Shown: piece by piece, positions 22,952 through 29,219 of the stretch | Layout: the number at the start of each line of letters is the position of its first letter | How positions within the stretch are numbered: position 1 is the first letter of the stretch | Assembly: GCF_016623465.1 (NCBI RefSeq) | Contig: NZ_JAEDAJ010000002.1 | Location: 198,093 to 262,092 of the forward strand | Length of the DNA stretch: 64,000 bases | Direction of reading: 5' to 3' | Origin: Brachybacterium halotolerans | GTDB lineage: Bacteria; Actinomycetota; Actinomycetes; Actinomycetales; Dermabacteraceae | The notes under the pieces: generated by a model | Database searches by the model: none | What the model was told of the DNA's origin: nothing | The model's input: only the letters and a program-made list of their open reading frames with translations | Program-made: the position numbers and the translations under genes

Positions 22952-23151
22952 CGTTCGACTCCTAGGGCCCGGGGCCCGGTTCGCGGCCGACGGGACGGCC
23001 GCAGCCCCGCGGGCGCGAGGCTGCGGCCAGGGTATCCCCGGGCCAGGGGGCAGCGGCATGCGCGTCTCGTGCTGCGTCACCGCCGCCTCGTCCCCCTCCC
23101 TCCAGGCGGACCGCACGGCACGCCGCACCGCCCGCGCCGCTCCGCACCGAG

Positions 23152-23181
23152 CCCGACCCGACCCGACCCGACCCGACCCGA
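23152..23181. repeat. Pentanucleotide repeat
   Basis: Six copies of CCCGA in a row between the divergent aminotransferase and HdeD genes; likely a slippage-prone simple repeat. Confidence 0.8.
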
Positions 23182-23265
23182 GAGGCTAGGCTGGAAACCG
23201 TCTGAACGACGACAGGGAACGCGCCGGTGCCACGAACGGCGTCGTCCGATCACAGGAGGTCCGCC

Positions 23266-23874
23266 ATGTCCGCATCGCAACCCGACGCACCCGATCAGAC
23301 GGAGTCGACGGTGCCAGCAGAGACCGGTTGGAGCCGACTGCGCAAGGGCGCGCGCATCGCCCTCATCGTGCAGGGTGCGCTGAGCGTTCTGGTCGCGCTC
23401 GTCCTCCTCTTCGACCCGCTCCGCTCGATGCTCGTGCTCACGCTCGTCGTCGGTGCATGGCTGCTGGTCACCGGAATCGCCGCGATCATCAGCCATATCG
23501 CTCGAGATGCGCATCACCGCAGCGTATGGACGGTCGTGTCCGGCGCGCTCTCGATCGTGGCCGGTGCCCTCGTGATGATCATGCCCGGCTCGGCCGCGGT
23601 CGCTGCCGTCGCGATCCTCGCGACCTGGGCGATCCTCTTGGGAATCACCTACGGCCTGAACTCCTTGGCCCTGCGACGAGCAGGAGCGCCGGGATGGTGG
23701 GGCGTGCTGATCACGGGCATCCTCGCCGTTCTGCTGGGGATCCTGATGCTCGCCAATCCTGGCGCGGCCATGCTCGGCCTGGTCTGGGCCATCGGCATCT
23801 ACGCGCTCGTCGACGGCATCAGCGAGCTGATCCTGGGGATCCGCCTGGGCTCCCCTCGCTCCGATCGCCCCTGA
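23266..23874 (+). CDS. HdeD/DUF308 family membrane protein
   Basis: 202 aa. After a ~20-residue polar start come six membrane spans arranged as three DUF308 hairpins (GVLSVLVALVLLFDP-type, GALSIVAGALVMIMPG, GILAVLLGILMLANPG), ending in GISELILGIRLG. E. coli HdeD helps acid resistance; the role in Actinobacteria is unknown. ATG at 23266 is fixed by AGGAGG (23254-23259). TAGGCT near 23186 is a plausible -10 box. Confidence 0.9.
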   Translation: MSASQPDAPDQTESTVPAETGWSRLRKGARIALIVQGALSVLVALVLLFDPLRSMLVLTLVVGAWLLVTGIAAIISHIARDAHHRSVWTVVSGALSIVAGALVMIMPGSAAVAAVAILATWAILLGITYGLNSLALRRAGAPGWWGVLITGILAVLLGILMLANPGAAMLGLVWAIGIYALVDGISELILGIRLGSPRSDRP

Positions 23875-24330
23875 AGCCGCGGTCTCGCCCCGCCCCCGCG
23901 CCTCCACTCGCCCGCCCCCTCGGCCGCCCGGTCCACCCGGATCCGGACGAGCAGTCGTGCGCGACGCTGCCGGGGCCGGCACCGCCAGGGCCTAGGCCCT
24001 GCTTCGGCGAGCGCTTCTGCACCCTCACCGGTCACAGCGCACCCCTCGAGAGACCGTCTGCCACGTGCTCGAGGCGGGCGCACGCCGCGTTTGGGGACGA
24101 GCGCGCTCGCATCCGCTTCGGGACACCCTTGACGCACATGCTCGGAACCCTTTACTTTCAGTGCGTAAGTAATTGGGGCCGACGACGTCGCCCGGTGCCG
24201 ATGCGTGCAGTGATCGCCTGCGCCGCAGCTTCCGCCACTGCATATGGCGAGCGGAGGGCGATCATGCACTCTCGGCACCGAAAGCGACGCTCCGCGAGCG
24301 ACGTCGACGCTCTCCGACGAGAGGACGAAG
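23875..24330 (+). promoter_or_regulatory. Promoter and operator of the sugar ABC operon
   Basis: TTGACG (24129-24134) and TTACTT (24152-24157), 17 bp apart, form a promoter. TTACTT and AAGTAA (24167-24172) are inverted halves with a 9-bp spacer covering the -10 box and start site, as expected for a repressor operator, possibly that of the ROK protein at 27904. A ~165-nt leader follows; the rest of the gap is GC-rich and non-coding. Confidence 0.6.
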
Positions 24331-25242
24331 ATGTCTGCCGCATCCACCGCCGAGCTCCCGCCCGCACGACGCAAGCACCGGGACGACACCCGCCTGGCGC
24401 TGCTGTTCATCCTGCCGGCGAGCATCGGCCTGCTGGTGTTCCTGGTCTGGCCGCTGCTGACGGGCCTGTACTACTCGCTCACCGAGTACTCGATCCTCAC
24501 GCCCCCGAAATGGGTGGGGCTCGAGAACTACACGAACATGCTCAGCGACCCGGTGTTCTGGAAATCGCTGCGGGTCACCGTGCTGTACGTCGTCATCAAC
24601 ATCGGCGTGCAGACGGTCCTCGCGCTCCTCATCGCCGTCCTCATGCAGCGCCTCACGCAGAACACGTGGCTGCGCTCGCTCGTGCTCACCCCGTACCTGG
24701 TCTCCAACGTGGTCGCCGCGATCGTGTTCCTCTGGCTGCTGGACTCGCAGCTGGGCATCGTGAACCTGATCCTGCAGGGCATCGGCTTCGATCCGGTCTC
24801 CTTCTGGGCCAACGAGAAGTGGGTGATCCCCACGATCGCGCTCGTCAACGTGTGGCGGCACATGGGCTACACGGCGCTGCTGCTGTTCGCCGGTCTGCAG
24901 TCGATCCCCGAGCAGCTCTACGAGGCGGCGCGCACCGAGGGCGCCGGCGAGTGGCAGCTGTTCCGCCGGATCACCCTGCCGCTGCTGCGGCCGATCCTCG
25001 CGCTCGTGCTGATCATGTCGATCATCGGCAGCTTCCAGGTCTTCGACACCGTCTCGGTGACCACGCAGGGCGGACCGTCGGACGCCTCCAAGGTGCTGCA
25101 GATGTACATCTACGAGAACGCCTTCGGGCAGTACCAGTTCGGGTACGCGTCCGCGCTCTCGGTGGCGCTGCTGGTGATCCTCATGGTCATCACCTTCGCC
25201 CAGTACTTCCTGACCCGCGCCGGCCAGTCGGACCTGGACTGA
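24331..25242 (+). CDS. Carbohydrate ABC transporter permease (MalF/UgpA type)
   Basis: 303 aa with six membrane spans. N-terminal LALLFILPASIGLLVFLVWP is typical, and the EAA loop YEAARTEGAGEWQLFRRITLPLL near residues 200-223 contacts the ATPase. First gene of a permease-permease-binding protein operon; no ATPase gene is present, so a shared MsiK/UgpC-like ATPase elsewhere is likely, as is common in Actinobacteria. Start chosen at ATG 24331, after GAGAGGA; an upstream in-frame ATG at 24244 would overlap the leader. Confidence 0.92.
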   Translation: MSAASTAELPPARRKHRDDTRLALLFILPASIGLLVFLVWPLLTGLYYSLTEYSILTPPKWVGLENYTNMLSDPVFWKSLRVTVLYVVINIGVQTVLALLIAVLMQRLTQNTWLRSLVLTPYLVSNVVAAIVFLWLLDSQLGIVNLILQGIGFDPVSFWANEKWVIPTIALVNVWRHMGYTALLLFAGLQSIPEQLYEAARTEGAGEWQLFRRITLPLLRPILALVLIMSIIGSFQVFDTVSVTTQGGPSDASKVLQMYIYENAFGQYQFGYASALSVALLVILMVITFAQYFLTRAGQSDLD

Positions 25243-25254
25243 GAGGACGCCCAG

Positions 25255-26277
25255 ATGAGCACCGCCACTCCCGCCGTCGGCCCGTCGGCCGCCGGCCCCA
25301 CCGGCACCCCCGAACCCACCGGCCTGACCGACCCCACGGACCCCGACGCCCCCACGGGCCCGTCGGCCTCCCCCGCCTCCGGCGCCGCCCGCGCGCGCCG
25401 CCGTCCGCTGTCGCCCGGGCGGATCGTCGCCTGGATCGTCATGATCGTGATCCTGCTGGTGACGCTGTTCCCGTTCTACTGGATGCTGCGCACGGCGCTG
25501 TCCTCGAACACGGCGCTCGCGACCGACCCGACCAGCCTGCTGCCGGTGGACTTCTCGCTCGGCGGCTTCGAGCGCGTGTTCGGGCTGCAGGACGTGGAGA
25601 CCGCGGTCTCCCAGGGCGGCTCGGGCGCGTCGATCAACTTCTGGCGCTACCTGCTGAACTCGGTGATCGTCGCGACCGTGATCACCGTGGTGCAGACCTT
25701 CAGCTGCGCGATGGCCGCCTACGCCTTCTCGCGACTGCGCTGGAGGGGCCGCGAGACCGTGTTCCTCATCTTCCTGGGCGCGATGATGATCCCGCAGATC
25801 TTCACGCTGCTGCCCAACTTCATCCTCATCAAGAACCTGCACCTGGTGGACACGCTGCTGGGCATCATGCTGCCCACCCTGTTCATCTCGCCGTTCGCGA
25901 TCTTCTTCCTGCGCCAGTTCTTCAACAACATCTCGCGCGAGGTCGAGGAGGCCGCCCTCATCGACGGCGCGTCCAAGCCGCGCGTGTTCTTCACGCTGAT
26001 CCTGCCGATCAGCTCCGCGCCGCTCGCGACGCTCGCACTGCTGACCTACATGACGGCGTGGAACGAGTACTTCTGGTCGCTGATGGTCTCCTACACGGAC
26101 TCCTCGCGCGTGCTCACCGTCGCGCTCGGCGTCTTCCGCGCGCAGTCGCCCCAGACGGGCACGGACTGGGCGGGCCTGATGGCCGCGACGCTGGTCGCGG
26201 CGGCGCCCATGCTGATCCTCTTCGTGCTGTTCGCGAAGCGGATCGTGAACTCCATCGGCTTCAGCGGGATCAAGTGA
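25255..26277 (+). CDS. Carbohydrate ABC transporter permease (MalG/UgpE type)
   Basis: 340 aa. A ~55-residue Pro/Gly/Thr-rich cytosolic N terminus, encoded by DNA full of GTCGGCC-like words, precedes six spans starting at VAWIVMIVILLVTLFPFYWMLRTAL. EAA motif EEAALIDGASKPRVFFTLILPI near 225-246. Ends SIGFSGIK, typical of MalG relatives. Begins 12 bp after the first permease with GAGAGGA. Works with the flanking genes to import an oligosaccharide or sugar derivative. Confidence 0.92.
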   Translation: MSTATPAVGPSAAGPTGTPEPTGLTDPTDPDAPTGPSASPASGAARARRRPLSPGRIVAWIVMIVILLVTLFPFYWMLRTALSSNTALATDPTSLLPVDFSLGGFERVFGLQDVETAVSQGGSGASINFWRYLLNSVIVATVITVVQTFSCAMAAYAFSRLRWRGRETVFLIFLGAMMIPQIFTLLPNFILIKNLHLVDTLLGIMLPTLFISPFAIFFLRQFFNNISREVEEAALIDGASKPRVFFTLILPISSAPLATLALLTYMTAWNEYFWSLMVSYTDSSRVLTVALGVFRAQSPQTGTDWAGLMAATLVAAAPMLILFVLFAKRIVNSIGFSGIK

Positions 26278-26288
26278 GGGACGCACCC

Positions 26289-27674
26289 ATGACACGCACG
26301 ACTCCCCGTTCCCCCGTCCGCGCGCTCAGCCGTCGGACCCTGCTCGGCGGGACCGCCGCGCTCGGCGCGGCGGCCGCGACCGGCACCCTCGCCGGCTGCT
26401 CGGGCGGCGCCTCCGCGAGCGGCACGACGCGCCTGGACTACTGGCTGTGGGACGCCAACCAGCTGCCCGGCTACTCCCGCGCGATCGACCTCTTCATGGA
26501 GCGCAATCCCGACCTCGACGTGCGCATCACCCAGATGGGCTGGGACGACTACTGGACCAAGCTCACCGCGAGCTTCGTCGCCGGTGCCGGGCCCGACGTC
26601 TTCACCGACCATCTGGGCCGGTATCCGGAGTTCCTCTCGCTCGACGTGATCGTGCCGCTGGACGACTTCGCCCCGATCGCCGAGATCCCCGACGACCAGT
26701 ACCAGCCGGGCCTGCAGGAGCTGTGGACCGGGCAGGACGGCAAGCGCTACGGACTGCCCAAGGACTACGACACGATCGCGCTGATGTACGACGCGAAGAC
26801 GCTGAAGGAGGCGGGACTCTCCGCCGACGACCTCGAGGGCCTGGACTGGAACCCGCAGGACGGCGGGAGCTTCGAGAAGATGCTCATGCGCCTCGCGAAG
26901 GACACCACCGGGAAGCGCGGCGACGAGGAGGGCTTCGACCCCAAGAGCGTCGCCCGGTACGCCCTCGCGGCCGACCCCTCCACCGACTACACGGGCCAGA
27001 CCACCTGGTCGCCCTTCGCCTTCTCCACGGGCTGGACCTTCACCGACGAGAAGACCTGGGGCACCCGCTTCAACTACGACGACCCCGACTTCCAGGCGAC
27101 CATGGACTGGTACTTCGGGCTCGTCGACAAGGGCCTGCTGGCGCCCTTCGGCCTGTTCGGCGACTCCAGCCCCGCCGAGACCCAGATCCAGGGCGGCAAG
27201 GCGGCCGTCGCCCTCGCCGGCTCCTGGATGATCGGCACCTACGCGGGACTCGAGGGCGTGGACCTGGGCATCGCTCCCCTGCCGTCCGGGCCTATCGGGC
27301 ATCCGATGTCGATGTTCAACGGCCTGGGCGACTCGATCTCCTCGCAGTCGGAGCACAAGGAGGAGGCCGCGCGGCTGGTCGCGTTCCTGGGATCGGACGA
27401 CGCCCAGGAGATCATCGGCTCGCGGGCCATCGTCTTCCCCGCCTCCGACGCCGGCACCGCCGCCGCCGTGAAGGCCTACGAGGACAAGGGCCTGGACGTC
27501 TCCCCCTACACCGACCGCGTGAAGAAGGGCGAGACCGGGCTCTATCCCCTGGTCGAGCACGCCGCCCGGATCATGTCGATCATGCAGCCGGCCTTCGACG
27601 ACCTCTGGATGCGCAAGACCGAGGCCGACTCCTTCACCGCCTACAACGACAAGGCCAACGCCCTGTTCGAGTGA
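26289..27674 (+). CDS. Extracellular sugar-binding lipoprotein (Tat-type signal)
   Basis: 461 aa. Signal region SRRTLLGGTAALGAAAATGTLAGC has a twin arginine and a lipobox ending at Cys37, so the protein is probably exported folded by Tat and lipid-anchored. Then an SBP_bac_1 fold: LDYWLWDANQLPGYSRAIDLF, PDVFTDHLGRYPEFL, YGLPKDYDTIALMYD, GKAAVALAGSWMIG. Family members bind maltose, trehalose, glycerol-phosphate or other oligosaccharides; the ligand cannot be read. Begins 11 bp after the permease stop. Followed by the 58-bp palindrome. Confidence 0.92.
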   Translation: MTRTTPRSPVRALSRRTLLGGTAALGAAAATGTLAGCSGGASASGTTRLDYWLWDANQLPGYSRAIDLFMERNPDLDVRITQMGWDDYWTKLTASFVAGAGPDVFTDHLGRYPEFLSLDVIVPLDDFAPIAEIPDDQYQPGLQELWTGQDGKRYGLPKDYDTIALMYDAKTLKEAGLSADDLEGLDWNPQDGGSFEKMLMRLAKDTTGKRGDEEGFDPKSVARYALAADPSTDYTGQTTWSPFAFSTGWTFTDEKTWGTRFNYDDPDFQATMDWYFGLVDKGLLAPFGLFGDSSPAETQIQGGKAAVALAGSWMIGTYAGLEGVDLGIAPLPSGPIGHPMSMFNGLGDSISSQSEHKEEAARLVAFLGSDDAQEIIGSRAIVFPASDAGTAAAVKAYEDKGLDVSPYTDRVKKGETGLYPLVEHAARIMSIMQPAFDDLWMRKTEADSFTAYNDKANALFE

Positions 27675-27746: not shown

Positions 27747-27804
27747 GTGAGAAGTACGAAATCGTTGCCATGAGCGCTCATGGCAACGATTTCGTACTTC
27801 TCAC
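27747..27804. repeat. Perfect 58-bp palindrome, member of the hairpin element family
   Basis: Every base from 27747 to 27775 pairs with 27776 to 27804 (29-bp perfect stem): GTGAGAAGTACGAAATCG... centred on TGAGCGCTCA. It is far less GC-rich than its surroundings and lies between convergent genes (27674 and 27904). Blocks GTG, GTA, TCGTT, TGAGCGCYCA, AACGA, TAC, CAC occur in the same order and near-identical spacing as in the repeats at 7528-7810. It could act as a terminator for both genes, but has no U-run. The flanks 27675-27746 and 27805-27903 hold only GC-rich repeats. Confidence 0.95.
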
Positions 27805-27903
27805 GCTCCGGAGCCCGCTCCGGAGCCCGAGCCCGCGCCCGATGCCGCGCCCCGTCGCGCCGTCCATCGCGCTGGGTCCGACGGAGGTGCGCCGCGCGGG
27901 CCG

Positions 27904-29175
27904 TCAGGCGTCGTCGCGGCCGCCGATGAAGCGGCGCAGGGCGATCACGGCGGCGCCGCGGGTCCAGTCGTCGAAGTCGGCGGGAAGGAAGCGCACGAGC
28001 ACGTCGCGCTGGACGCGGGCCAGGTGGGCGCGCAGGGCGACGTCGAACTCGTCGCCCACGCGCAGGAGGTCCACGGCCTCGCCGCCCAGGATCAGGGCGT
28101 CCGGGTCGAGCACGCCGACGAGCCCCGCGCCTGCGACCGCGACCGCGTGGGCGACGTCGGCCGCGACCTCGAGGGCGGCCGGATCGCCGGCGCGGGCCGC
28201 GTGCACGAGGGCCTCGAGACCGTGCGCCTCCGATGCTCCTGCGGCCCCGCCGGCACCGCCGACGCCGACGCCGGCGCCGACCCCACCGTCCGCCTCCGAC
28301 ACCCCGGGGACGCCGCGCTCCCGCGCCGCGTCGAGGATGTGCGCGGTGCTCGCGACCTGGCGCAGCAGCACGCCGCGGCCGTCGCGGGTGATAGTGGGCA
28401 GGGTGCCGGTGAGCCCGGCGAGGTGGGTGCGACCGCGGTGCACCTCGGCGTCCTCGACGCTGCCCACGCCCACGCCCGCGCCGATGGTGATGACGGCGAA
28501 GGAGCAGTGGCGTCGACCGATGCCGAACCAGGCGTGCCCCTCGAGCAGGGCATGGAAGTCGTTGCTGACCGTCACCGGCAGGCCCAGGCGCCCTTCGAGC
28601 TCGGCGCGCAGGTGGACCGGCTCGCTCCAGCCGAGCATGGCGGACGAGGCGACGGCGCCGTCGTCGTCGACCTGCGCGCCGATGCCCACGCCGATCCCCG
28701 CCACGCGCGGGTGGGCGGCGAGCAGAGGCTCGCACAGCTCGAGAGCGGTCGCGATGATCGTGGCCGGCTCGACGTCCTCGAGATCCCGGCTGACCTCCTC
28801 GAGCGCCGTGCCGCGCACGGTGACGACGGCGGCGTAGATGCTCTGGGCGGTGATCTTCACGCCGATGAAGACCGCGTGGTCCTCGTCGACGTCGAGGGGC
28901 TGCTGCGGCCGTCCCTTGGTCTGCATCTGCGGCGGCAGCTCGCGCAGCAGGCCGCTCTCCAGCAGCTCGCGGGTGACGCGGGTGAGGGTCGGCCCCGAGA
29001 GCCCGAGCAGCCGCGCGAGGTCGGTGCGGGCGTGCGGGCCGTAGCGGACGAGGTGCTCGTAGACCTCGCCGGCGGTCGCGGAGCAGGGGGCGCTCGGCGG
29101 CACGCGATCCGCGGACGTGCGTGCCGCGCCCGGTGCGTCCGCCGCGCCGGACGTCGACTCTCCCCCGCTGTCCAT
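27904..29175 (-). CDS. ROK family transcriptional regulator
   Basis: 423 aa. Winged HTH at ~33-90 (EVYEHLVRYGPHARTDLARLLGLSGPTLTRVTRELLESGLL), then a ROK kinase-like domain: VFIGVKITAQSIYAAVV, GIGVGIGAQVD, VSNDFHALLEGHAWFG, ITIGAGVGVG, and ALILGGEAVDLL. The CxCGxxGC zinc motif of most ROK proteins is missing. A Gly-rich insertion (residues ~295-325) interrupts the domain. Position beside the sugar ABC operon suggests it senses the imported sugar and controls the promoter at 24129. TACCCT lies 6 nt before the ATG at 29175, a leaderless start; GTG 29181 is an alternative. Confidence 0.9.
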   Translation of the reverse strand: MDSGGESTSGAADAPGAARTSADRVPPSAPCSATAGEVYEHLVRYGPHARTDLARLLGLSGPTLTRVTRELLESGLLRELPPQMQTKGRPQQPLDVDEDHAVFIGVKITAQSIYAAVVTVRGTALEEVSRDLEDVEPATIIATALELCEPLLAAHPRVAGIGVGIGAQVDDDGAVASSAMLGWSEPVHLRAELEGRLGLPVTVSNDFHALLEGHAWFGIGRRHCSFAVITIGAGVGVGSVEDAEVHRGRTHLAGLTGTLPTITRDGRGVLLRQVASTAHILDAARERGVPGVSEADGGVGAGVGVGGAGGAAGASEAHGLEALVHAARAGDPAALEVAADVAHAVAVAGAGLVGVLDPDALILGGEAVDLLRVGDEFDVALRAHLARVQRDVLVRFLPADFDDWTRGAAVIALRRFIGGRDDA

Positions 29176-29219
29176 GTCCACAGGGTACGGAACGCGCTGT
29201 GCTCCTCCGACCGTCTCCG

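Follow-up and report, generated by a model that had tools for sequence, protein, structure and literature searches.

A perfect palindrome between convergent genes

The window analysed is a stretch of 64 kb (64,000 nucleotides) from Brachybacterium halotolerans. Within it, an extracellular solute-binding protein gene and a ROK-family protein gene converge on a gap of 229 bp that holds a perfect palindrome. Gene starts in the following list come from a crude codon-usage gene caller, and the boundary between inner and outer stem is our own division.

24331-25242 and 25255-26277: permeases of the same transporter cluster as the solute-binding protein gene
26289-27674, plus strand: extracellular solute-binding protein gene (SBP_bac_1, E 2.6e-24), with its 3' end 72 nt from the element
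27747-27804, no strand: perfect 58-bp palindrome (the element), with a core of 54 bp at 27749-27802 (GAG...CTC)
27747-27775, plus strand: left arm
27776-27804, minus strand: right arm, the reverse complement of the left arm, no spacer
27762-27789, no strand: inner stem (14 + 14) around the centre, with GTTGCCATGAGC/GCTCATGGCAAC (from the sequence and alignment A3)
27790-27802, plus strand: T-rich outer half of the 3' arm as read from the binding-protein gene (TTTCGTACTTCTC)
27749-27761: mirror outer half, for the ROK side (from the outer-arm T content of dialect I)
27904-29181, minus strand: ROK-family protein gene (ROK, E 1.9e-21), with its 3' end 99 nt from the element

An inverted-repeat search of the window (distance up to 200) returned six inverted repeats. 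The arms of the palindrome are 29 nt long, 100% complementary and separated by a spacer of 0 nt; the runner-up reached 26 nt at 85%. The 58-mer is identical to its own reverse complement and has a GC content of 48.3%, against 71.8% for the window. An earlier note, made from the letters alone, had described a perfect low-GC inverted repeat of 29 bp between convergent genes, and the arm length and the composition (48% versus 72% GC) confirm this description. In 40 dinucleotide-preserving shuffles of the window, the longest perfect zero-spacer arm per shuffle measured 7-12 nt. As RNA, the 58-mer is predicted to fold into a single hairpin on either strand (-60.2 and -61.6 kcal/mol; z -10.6 and -11.6), and the note's placing of this hairpin at the 3' ends of both the binding-protein and the ROK transcripts is well supported by position. 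A tandem duplicate, CGCTCCGGAGCC, immediately adjoins the palindrome at window positions 27804-27827.

The palindrome belongs to a dispersed family with several dialects

The palindrome, 54-55 bp long across the family, is a member of a set of dispersed elements at gene 3' ends in Brachybacterium and relatives, a repetition that was out of sight for the earlier note. Searching the host genome (G000) with a 21-base arm pattern (19 bases specified, up to 3 mismatches) gave 33 arm matches, and 0 for the reversed control. Twenty-eight of these matches form 14 pairs; of the other five, two are at contig ends, one belongs to a duplicated half, one has a partner that is partly N and one has a diverged partner. 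Whole 54-bp sites number 15 in the host, the window's included, 19 in genome G012 and 4 in B. subflavum CFH 10395 (G034), which additionally carries diverged forms of the element. The readout comprised 40 rows from these three genomes and included two host entries beyond the 15 sites: a copy on contig C13, whose locus seems to repeat one on C12, and, at L117:2671, a half that has been duplicated. One more host element is broken across the ends of contigs C3 and C19. At up to 2 mismatches, the arm pattern had matches in 3 of 38 genus genomes, and a scan of named genomes gave 14 stretches, three from B. subflavum with paired arms and 11 with single matches.

A covariance model, R1, was built from 31 of the 40 rows (alignment A1), in which 22 of 60 columns are invariant. 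Counting each element about twice, R1 gave 53 strand matches in G000, 55 in G012 and 60 in G034, with weaker ones in 12 further genomes. At least three dialects can be told apart: I (GAGAAGTACGAAACGGTTGCCAAGAGC and its mirror), II (GAGTGCTGCGCAATGGTCGTTATGAGC) and III (GAGAGGTGAGTTGTCGTCGTCAA..., 55 nt), with others elsewhere in the genus. We aligned 45 hand-chosen rows over 61 columns, with a single indel column near the centre (alignment A3). Mean column identity was 68%, and element length stayed nearly constant at 54-55 bp across dialects. Pairing held in 90.3% of cells, 25 of 26 pairs had changes on both sides, and covariation was 0.544, compared with 0.205 when shuffled and at most 0.134 when slid.

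The all-dialect model, R2, found matches in 24 of 38 genus genomes (E <= 0.001) and in 17 of 198 genomes of the order sample (E <= 1e-4), five from the genus and 12 from other genera. Within one other family, five genomes had at least 14-24 strand matches each, and among the seven remaining other-genus genomes two had at least 8 and at least 9 and five had at least 1-3; these counts are lower bounds because only part of the candidates gets scored. Arms from that other family, for example GAGTGCTCCGTAAGTGCCGTTTTGA, resemble dialect II as judged by eye, with kinship in sequence outside the genus less sure than kinship in structure because R2 rewards any long stem.

Palindromes were also listed without regard to their sequence. 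Two 200-kb stretches of G012, picked for holding known elements, contained 22 and 14 palindromes, with five flagged inside genes and five belonging to the family, all previously known; the remainder were mostly shorter GC-rich hairpins, together with a small number of other long families. A 400-kb span of G051 contained 30 palindromes, and two of these, both known before, carried that lineage's dialect. A search of 801 bases against Rfam gave five matches, all below the gathering score and the best of them to microRNA precursors, which we take as a generic hairpin effect.

Elements are concentrated near gene 3' ends

Using the codon-usage gene caller, we placed 67 elements relative to genes, a set that includes orthologues, the C13 copy and two elements added by hand (L096 and L115:2767). 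Thirty-six lie between convergent, 25 between tandem and six between divergent genes, against 14 convergent, 45 tandem and 35 divergent among control gaps of at least 120 nt without an element. Counted as gaps, 35 of 65 with an element are convergent versus 14 of 94 without one (Fisher p 2.4e-7). Genome by genome, with C13 excluded, the convergent fractions were 10/19, 14/25 and 12/22 (p 9e-4, 7e-5 and 2e-4 versus the pooled control). All 25 tandem elements are closer to the 3' end of the upstream gene (median 74 versus 257 nt), and the median distance to a 3' end is 74 nt in tandem and 92 nt in convergent gaps. One dialect II element lies 78 nt downstream of a tRNA-Met gene.

Elements outside this set are more mixed. 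Among the weak elements dropped by the placing script, L170 and both of L188 agree with 3'-end placing, and L183 and L189 are nearer the start of the next gene (52 versus 93 nt). Fifteen weaker places in other species comprise eight convergent, two tandem nearer a 3' end, three tandem nearer a 5' end, one divergent and one intragenic. L183, L189 and these mixed places slightly lower our confidence in the reading proposed below. A hand count of 25 R2 loci gave 13 convergent and one divergent; of the 11 tandem ones, 10 are closer to the 3' end. L099 and L171, both divergent, belong to a single locus. In the host, a small open frame there reads leftward into the element; G012 lacks this frame, which may account for the two cases. 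The other four divergent elements, at two loci (L106:2832/L117:1344 and L100:3129/L111:2947), do not fit 3'-end placing.

Two features of the arrangement are recorded here as side observations. In two species, elements flank both sides of a gene that encodes 321 aa in G000 and has no Pfam match (L117:1344 and L117:2551; L106:2832 and 4039). In G012, all 19 dialect I elements (C1, 1.61-3.44 Mb) are found no more than 1.44 Mb from dnaA (3.05 Mb), and a KS test of their distance from dnaA against a uniform spread gave p 0.0066.

Sites are shared between species and elements change less than their flanks

At the site orthologous to that of the window, the 54-bp core in G012 is identical letter for letter, and B. 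subflavum has a diverged dialect III hairpin. On these two occupied sites, a lone recent insertion was rejected. The earlier note had offered recent arrival or strong selection as the cause of the low GC content; of these, selection fits the occupied sites better than recent arrival. It had also named absence from relatives, with no trace of insertion, as evidence against its reading, and in G012 and G034 the site is occupied. In G019, the ROK-side gap contains an unrelated GC-rich hairpin of 15 bp (z -4.4). R2 found no element beside the ROK homologues of G005, G018, G019, G033 and six further genomes (L058-L067), and the ROK-side stretches of G005, G033 and G018 fold like shuffles (z -0.6, -0.8 and +0.6). 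In G011 (L068), R2 matched twice (353-413 and 840-899) on the downstream side of the ROK homologue, at a distance of some hundreds of bases from it. Elsewhere in the window, the gap at 22952-24330 corresponds to a place where G012 and G034 have an element (L100:3129, L111:2947); in the host it is partly filled by unrelated DNA with an open frame at 23206-23874.

We paired G000 and G012 sites by flanking similarity. Over 15 shared sites, 41 of 810 element positions differ (5%), versus 161 of 600 in the adjoining 40 nt (about 27%, a flank divergence overstated because the flanks were compared ungapped). Ten base pairs are altered on both sides (about 1 expected) and 21 on one side. Counting the C13 copy, G000 has AA at arm positions 4-5 in 28 of its 32 arms; G012 has it in 22 of 38 and G034 in 2 of 26. 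Such species-differing letters are a sign of homogenisation within genomes.

A probable two-way hairpin at transcript ends

From the copies, their positions and their shared sites we infer, with slightly better than even confidence, a dispersed family of two-way 3'-end or terminator hairpins acting as RNA. Three observations lead to this reading: the placing at 3' ends, the two-way symmetry and the different hairpins found at one site in relatives. A transcript from either side would fold into a hairpin of 25-27 bp that ends or caps it, and since the RNA folds from either direction, a single element between convergent genes would serve both. A copying process in an ancestor would have spread the copies, which would since have been kept in place and partly homogenised in each species.

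As in an intrinsic terminator, a stable hairpin follows shortly after the stop codon. In dialect I, the outer 3' arms are 45.8% T, against 13.9% in intergenic DNA of the window (55 elements, convergent ones read in both directions), and thus the inner stem and the T stretch could form an intrinsic terminator. The T-rich outer arm (TTTCGTACTTCTC in the window) would then act as a possible weak U-tract before the outer stem closes, and the outer stem would pair the two tails of the inner-stem terminator. Outer arms of dialect II are only 22% T. Beyond the full stem there is no T run (12.6% T in the following 12 nt), and a consensus terminator scan reported 0 terminator-like sites at the palindrome. 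Sense-strand mismatches in 24 tandem elements (11 G-U, 18 A-C and 21 others) show no G-U bias, and the covariation may therefore stem from DNA-level arm correction, a process reportedly described by van Noort et al. in 2003 that would likewise couple the arms. With no U-tract after the full stem and no G-U bias, the RNA mechanism is one that we infer.

Between convergent genes, G012 also has two shorter hairpins with a similar outer stem, AGAAGG...CCTTCT (L256:18462 and L267:10120). In element-free gaps, stems beat all 20 shuffles in 8 of 23 convergent, 13 of 73 tandem and 8 of 40 divergent cases; in the convergent ones, stems are only modestly stronger than in shuffles.

The proposed hairpin has partial counterparts elsewhere. 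In the sections available of two papers, one describes bidirectional terminators whose A and T tails are complementary (PMC1852404), and the other reports that E. coli has terminator-linked inverted repeats and few repeats of 13 bp or more (PMC6060812). The likeness to both is one symmetric hairpin serving both strands (PMC1852404, PMC6060812); as far as those sections go, the known bidirectional terminators have A/T runs alongside, whereas the Brachybacterium arms are 27 bp with no T run past the full stem. Mapped transcript ends of Mycobacterium tuberculosis (n = 121) are, in the portion available of that study, high-GC actinobacterial hairpins that likewise lack a conserved 3' flanking motif, but that portion describes no single repeated sequence family (PMC10937400).

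Alternative explanations

The strongest alternative, which we judge unlikely but a serious contender, is a selfish or passive palindromic repeat of REP or MITE type, copied by a transposase or by template switching and tolerated at gene ends, its hairpin having no job. A genome with near-identical copies at as many as 15 sites does require a copying process, arm ends vary by species as in concerted spread, and the family is patchy in the genus (24 of 38 genomes). Against this, sites persist between species and the elements change less than their flanks. Target-site duplications and empty sites were searched for, and neither a duplication nor a clean empty site was found at the window, L099 or L100 loci, where the flanks are too diverged and the G000 copy of L099 is corrupted by poly-G. 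Viral contigs (searched with the exact pattern), phages and plasmids likewise held no match, and a phage or plasmid origin was rejected on that ground.

Stem-loop repeats at gene 3' ends are already known as E. coli REP, Bor, Ype and Efa, and in the parts available of two reports REP-type repeats are likewise dispersed, near-identical extragenic palindromes with species-specific sequences that cluster at 3' ends (PMC1590033, PMC2267715). The Brachybacterium family shares the dispersed extragenic palindromes, many near 3' ends, but its members are 54-55 bp, many perfect and spacerless, and sit in high-GC Actinobacteria. REP/REPIN elements are defined by an associated RAYT transposase with the Y1_Tnp domain. 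This domain (PF01797) is absent from the genus sample (0 of 38 genomes, versus 5 of 14 controls), which speaks to the RAYT type of copying only, and a RAYT-driven REP is not supported.

An action at the level of DNA appears improbable to us: here the element would be a symmetric protein-binding or cruciform site that insulates genes or blocks RNA polymerase both ways. Zero-spacer symmetry in many copies, the near-constant length of 54-55 bp, a sense strand free of G-U bias and the conserved letters within the arms (the invariant columns of the 31-copy alignment) would all suit such a site. However, the arms vary by dialect beyond what would be expected for one conserved binding protein, and a preference for 3' ends is the pattern expected of an RNA hairpin.

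We hold it very improbable that the element is solely an RNase III processing site, a duplex of 25-27 bp cut in the 3' UTR that sets mRNA half-life without termination, although cleavage of the hairpin by RNase III, as the earlier note suggested, is possible. Stem length stays near-constant while sequence drifts, and an RNase III gene is present (PF14622, E 5.6e-37), but the enzyme is common, occurring in 8 of 14 control genomes, and the same position is equally expected of terminators.

DNA uptake signals were also compared. In the excerpts available of one paper, uptake-signal terminators of Neisseria and Pasteurellaceae likewise consist of a conserved motif in inverted pairs forming gene-end hairpins, with a motif of 9-11 nt and generally 1,000 occurrences or more (PMC1852404). 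The Brachybacterium arms are instead 27 nt long, at 15-19 dialect I sites. Uptake signals (DUS/USS) are also frequent as single copies. In G000 there are no free lone arms (28 of 33 matches paired, the rest explained), and this identity was rejected. A telomere-resolvase site, a palindrome of similar length, was set aside on copy number and 3'-end placing.

Other repeats and assembly scars

Further repeats came to light in these genomes. A second long palindrome family (ATGAGGCTGGCGAACCAAGAAC and its mirror) lies between convergent genes at L098:4834, L113:4554, L119:3017, L253:2333 and L116:4612-4868. A third, around CTCTGCC(A)ATATGGCAGAG and 56-74 bp long, lies between convergent G012 genes (L252:5228 and L267:10220), and a further repeated hairpin (CGATGTCGCTGGGTGAGGTCTCGAC and its mirror, with a short loop) is found near gene ends at L107:785, L118:774 and L251:14417.

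Hairpins of this kind can break short-read assemblies. In the host assembly, two contigs stop on either side of one palindrome (C19:308905, the end of L125, and the C3 end, L120:5501-5650), with poly-C in one of them. At other host scars (L124:2918-2927, L117:2551-2697 and L191:1944-2021), there is a run of Ns, an arm present twice, or poly-G where an arm should be. Contig C13 (L124) and the locus at about 87 kb on C12 (L122) of the host share the same dialect (GTAACGG) and the same gene lengths on both sides, and C13 may duplicate part of C12.

Wider meaning

A literature search returned nothing on these Brachybacterium repeats; a Brachybacterium genome paper, in the part available, mentions palindromes solely for CRISPR. 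The family is a lineage-specific new version of a known kind of element, the 3'-end stem-loop repeat. Transcript ending without clear U-tracts in high-GC Actinobacteria is, to our knowledge, still an open question.

We raise, as a tentative and fairly improbable extension, an order-wide 3'-end element of the Micrococcales: a palindrome of near-fixed length, with dialect arms that drift between lineages, change together and are homogenised genome by genome, read by a dedicated factor that co-evolves with the dialect and would be either a termination protein or RNase III as a duplex ruler. If true, such an element would amount to sequence-family-based, U-tract-free transcript ending in high-GC bacteria. 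For work on transcript ending, this family of long 3'-end palindromes, repeated many times and in several lineage dialects, offers a ready test set.
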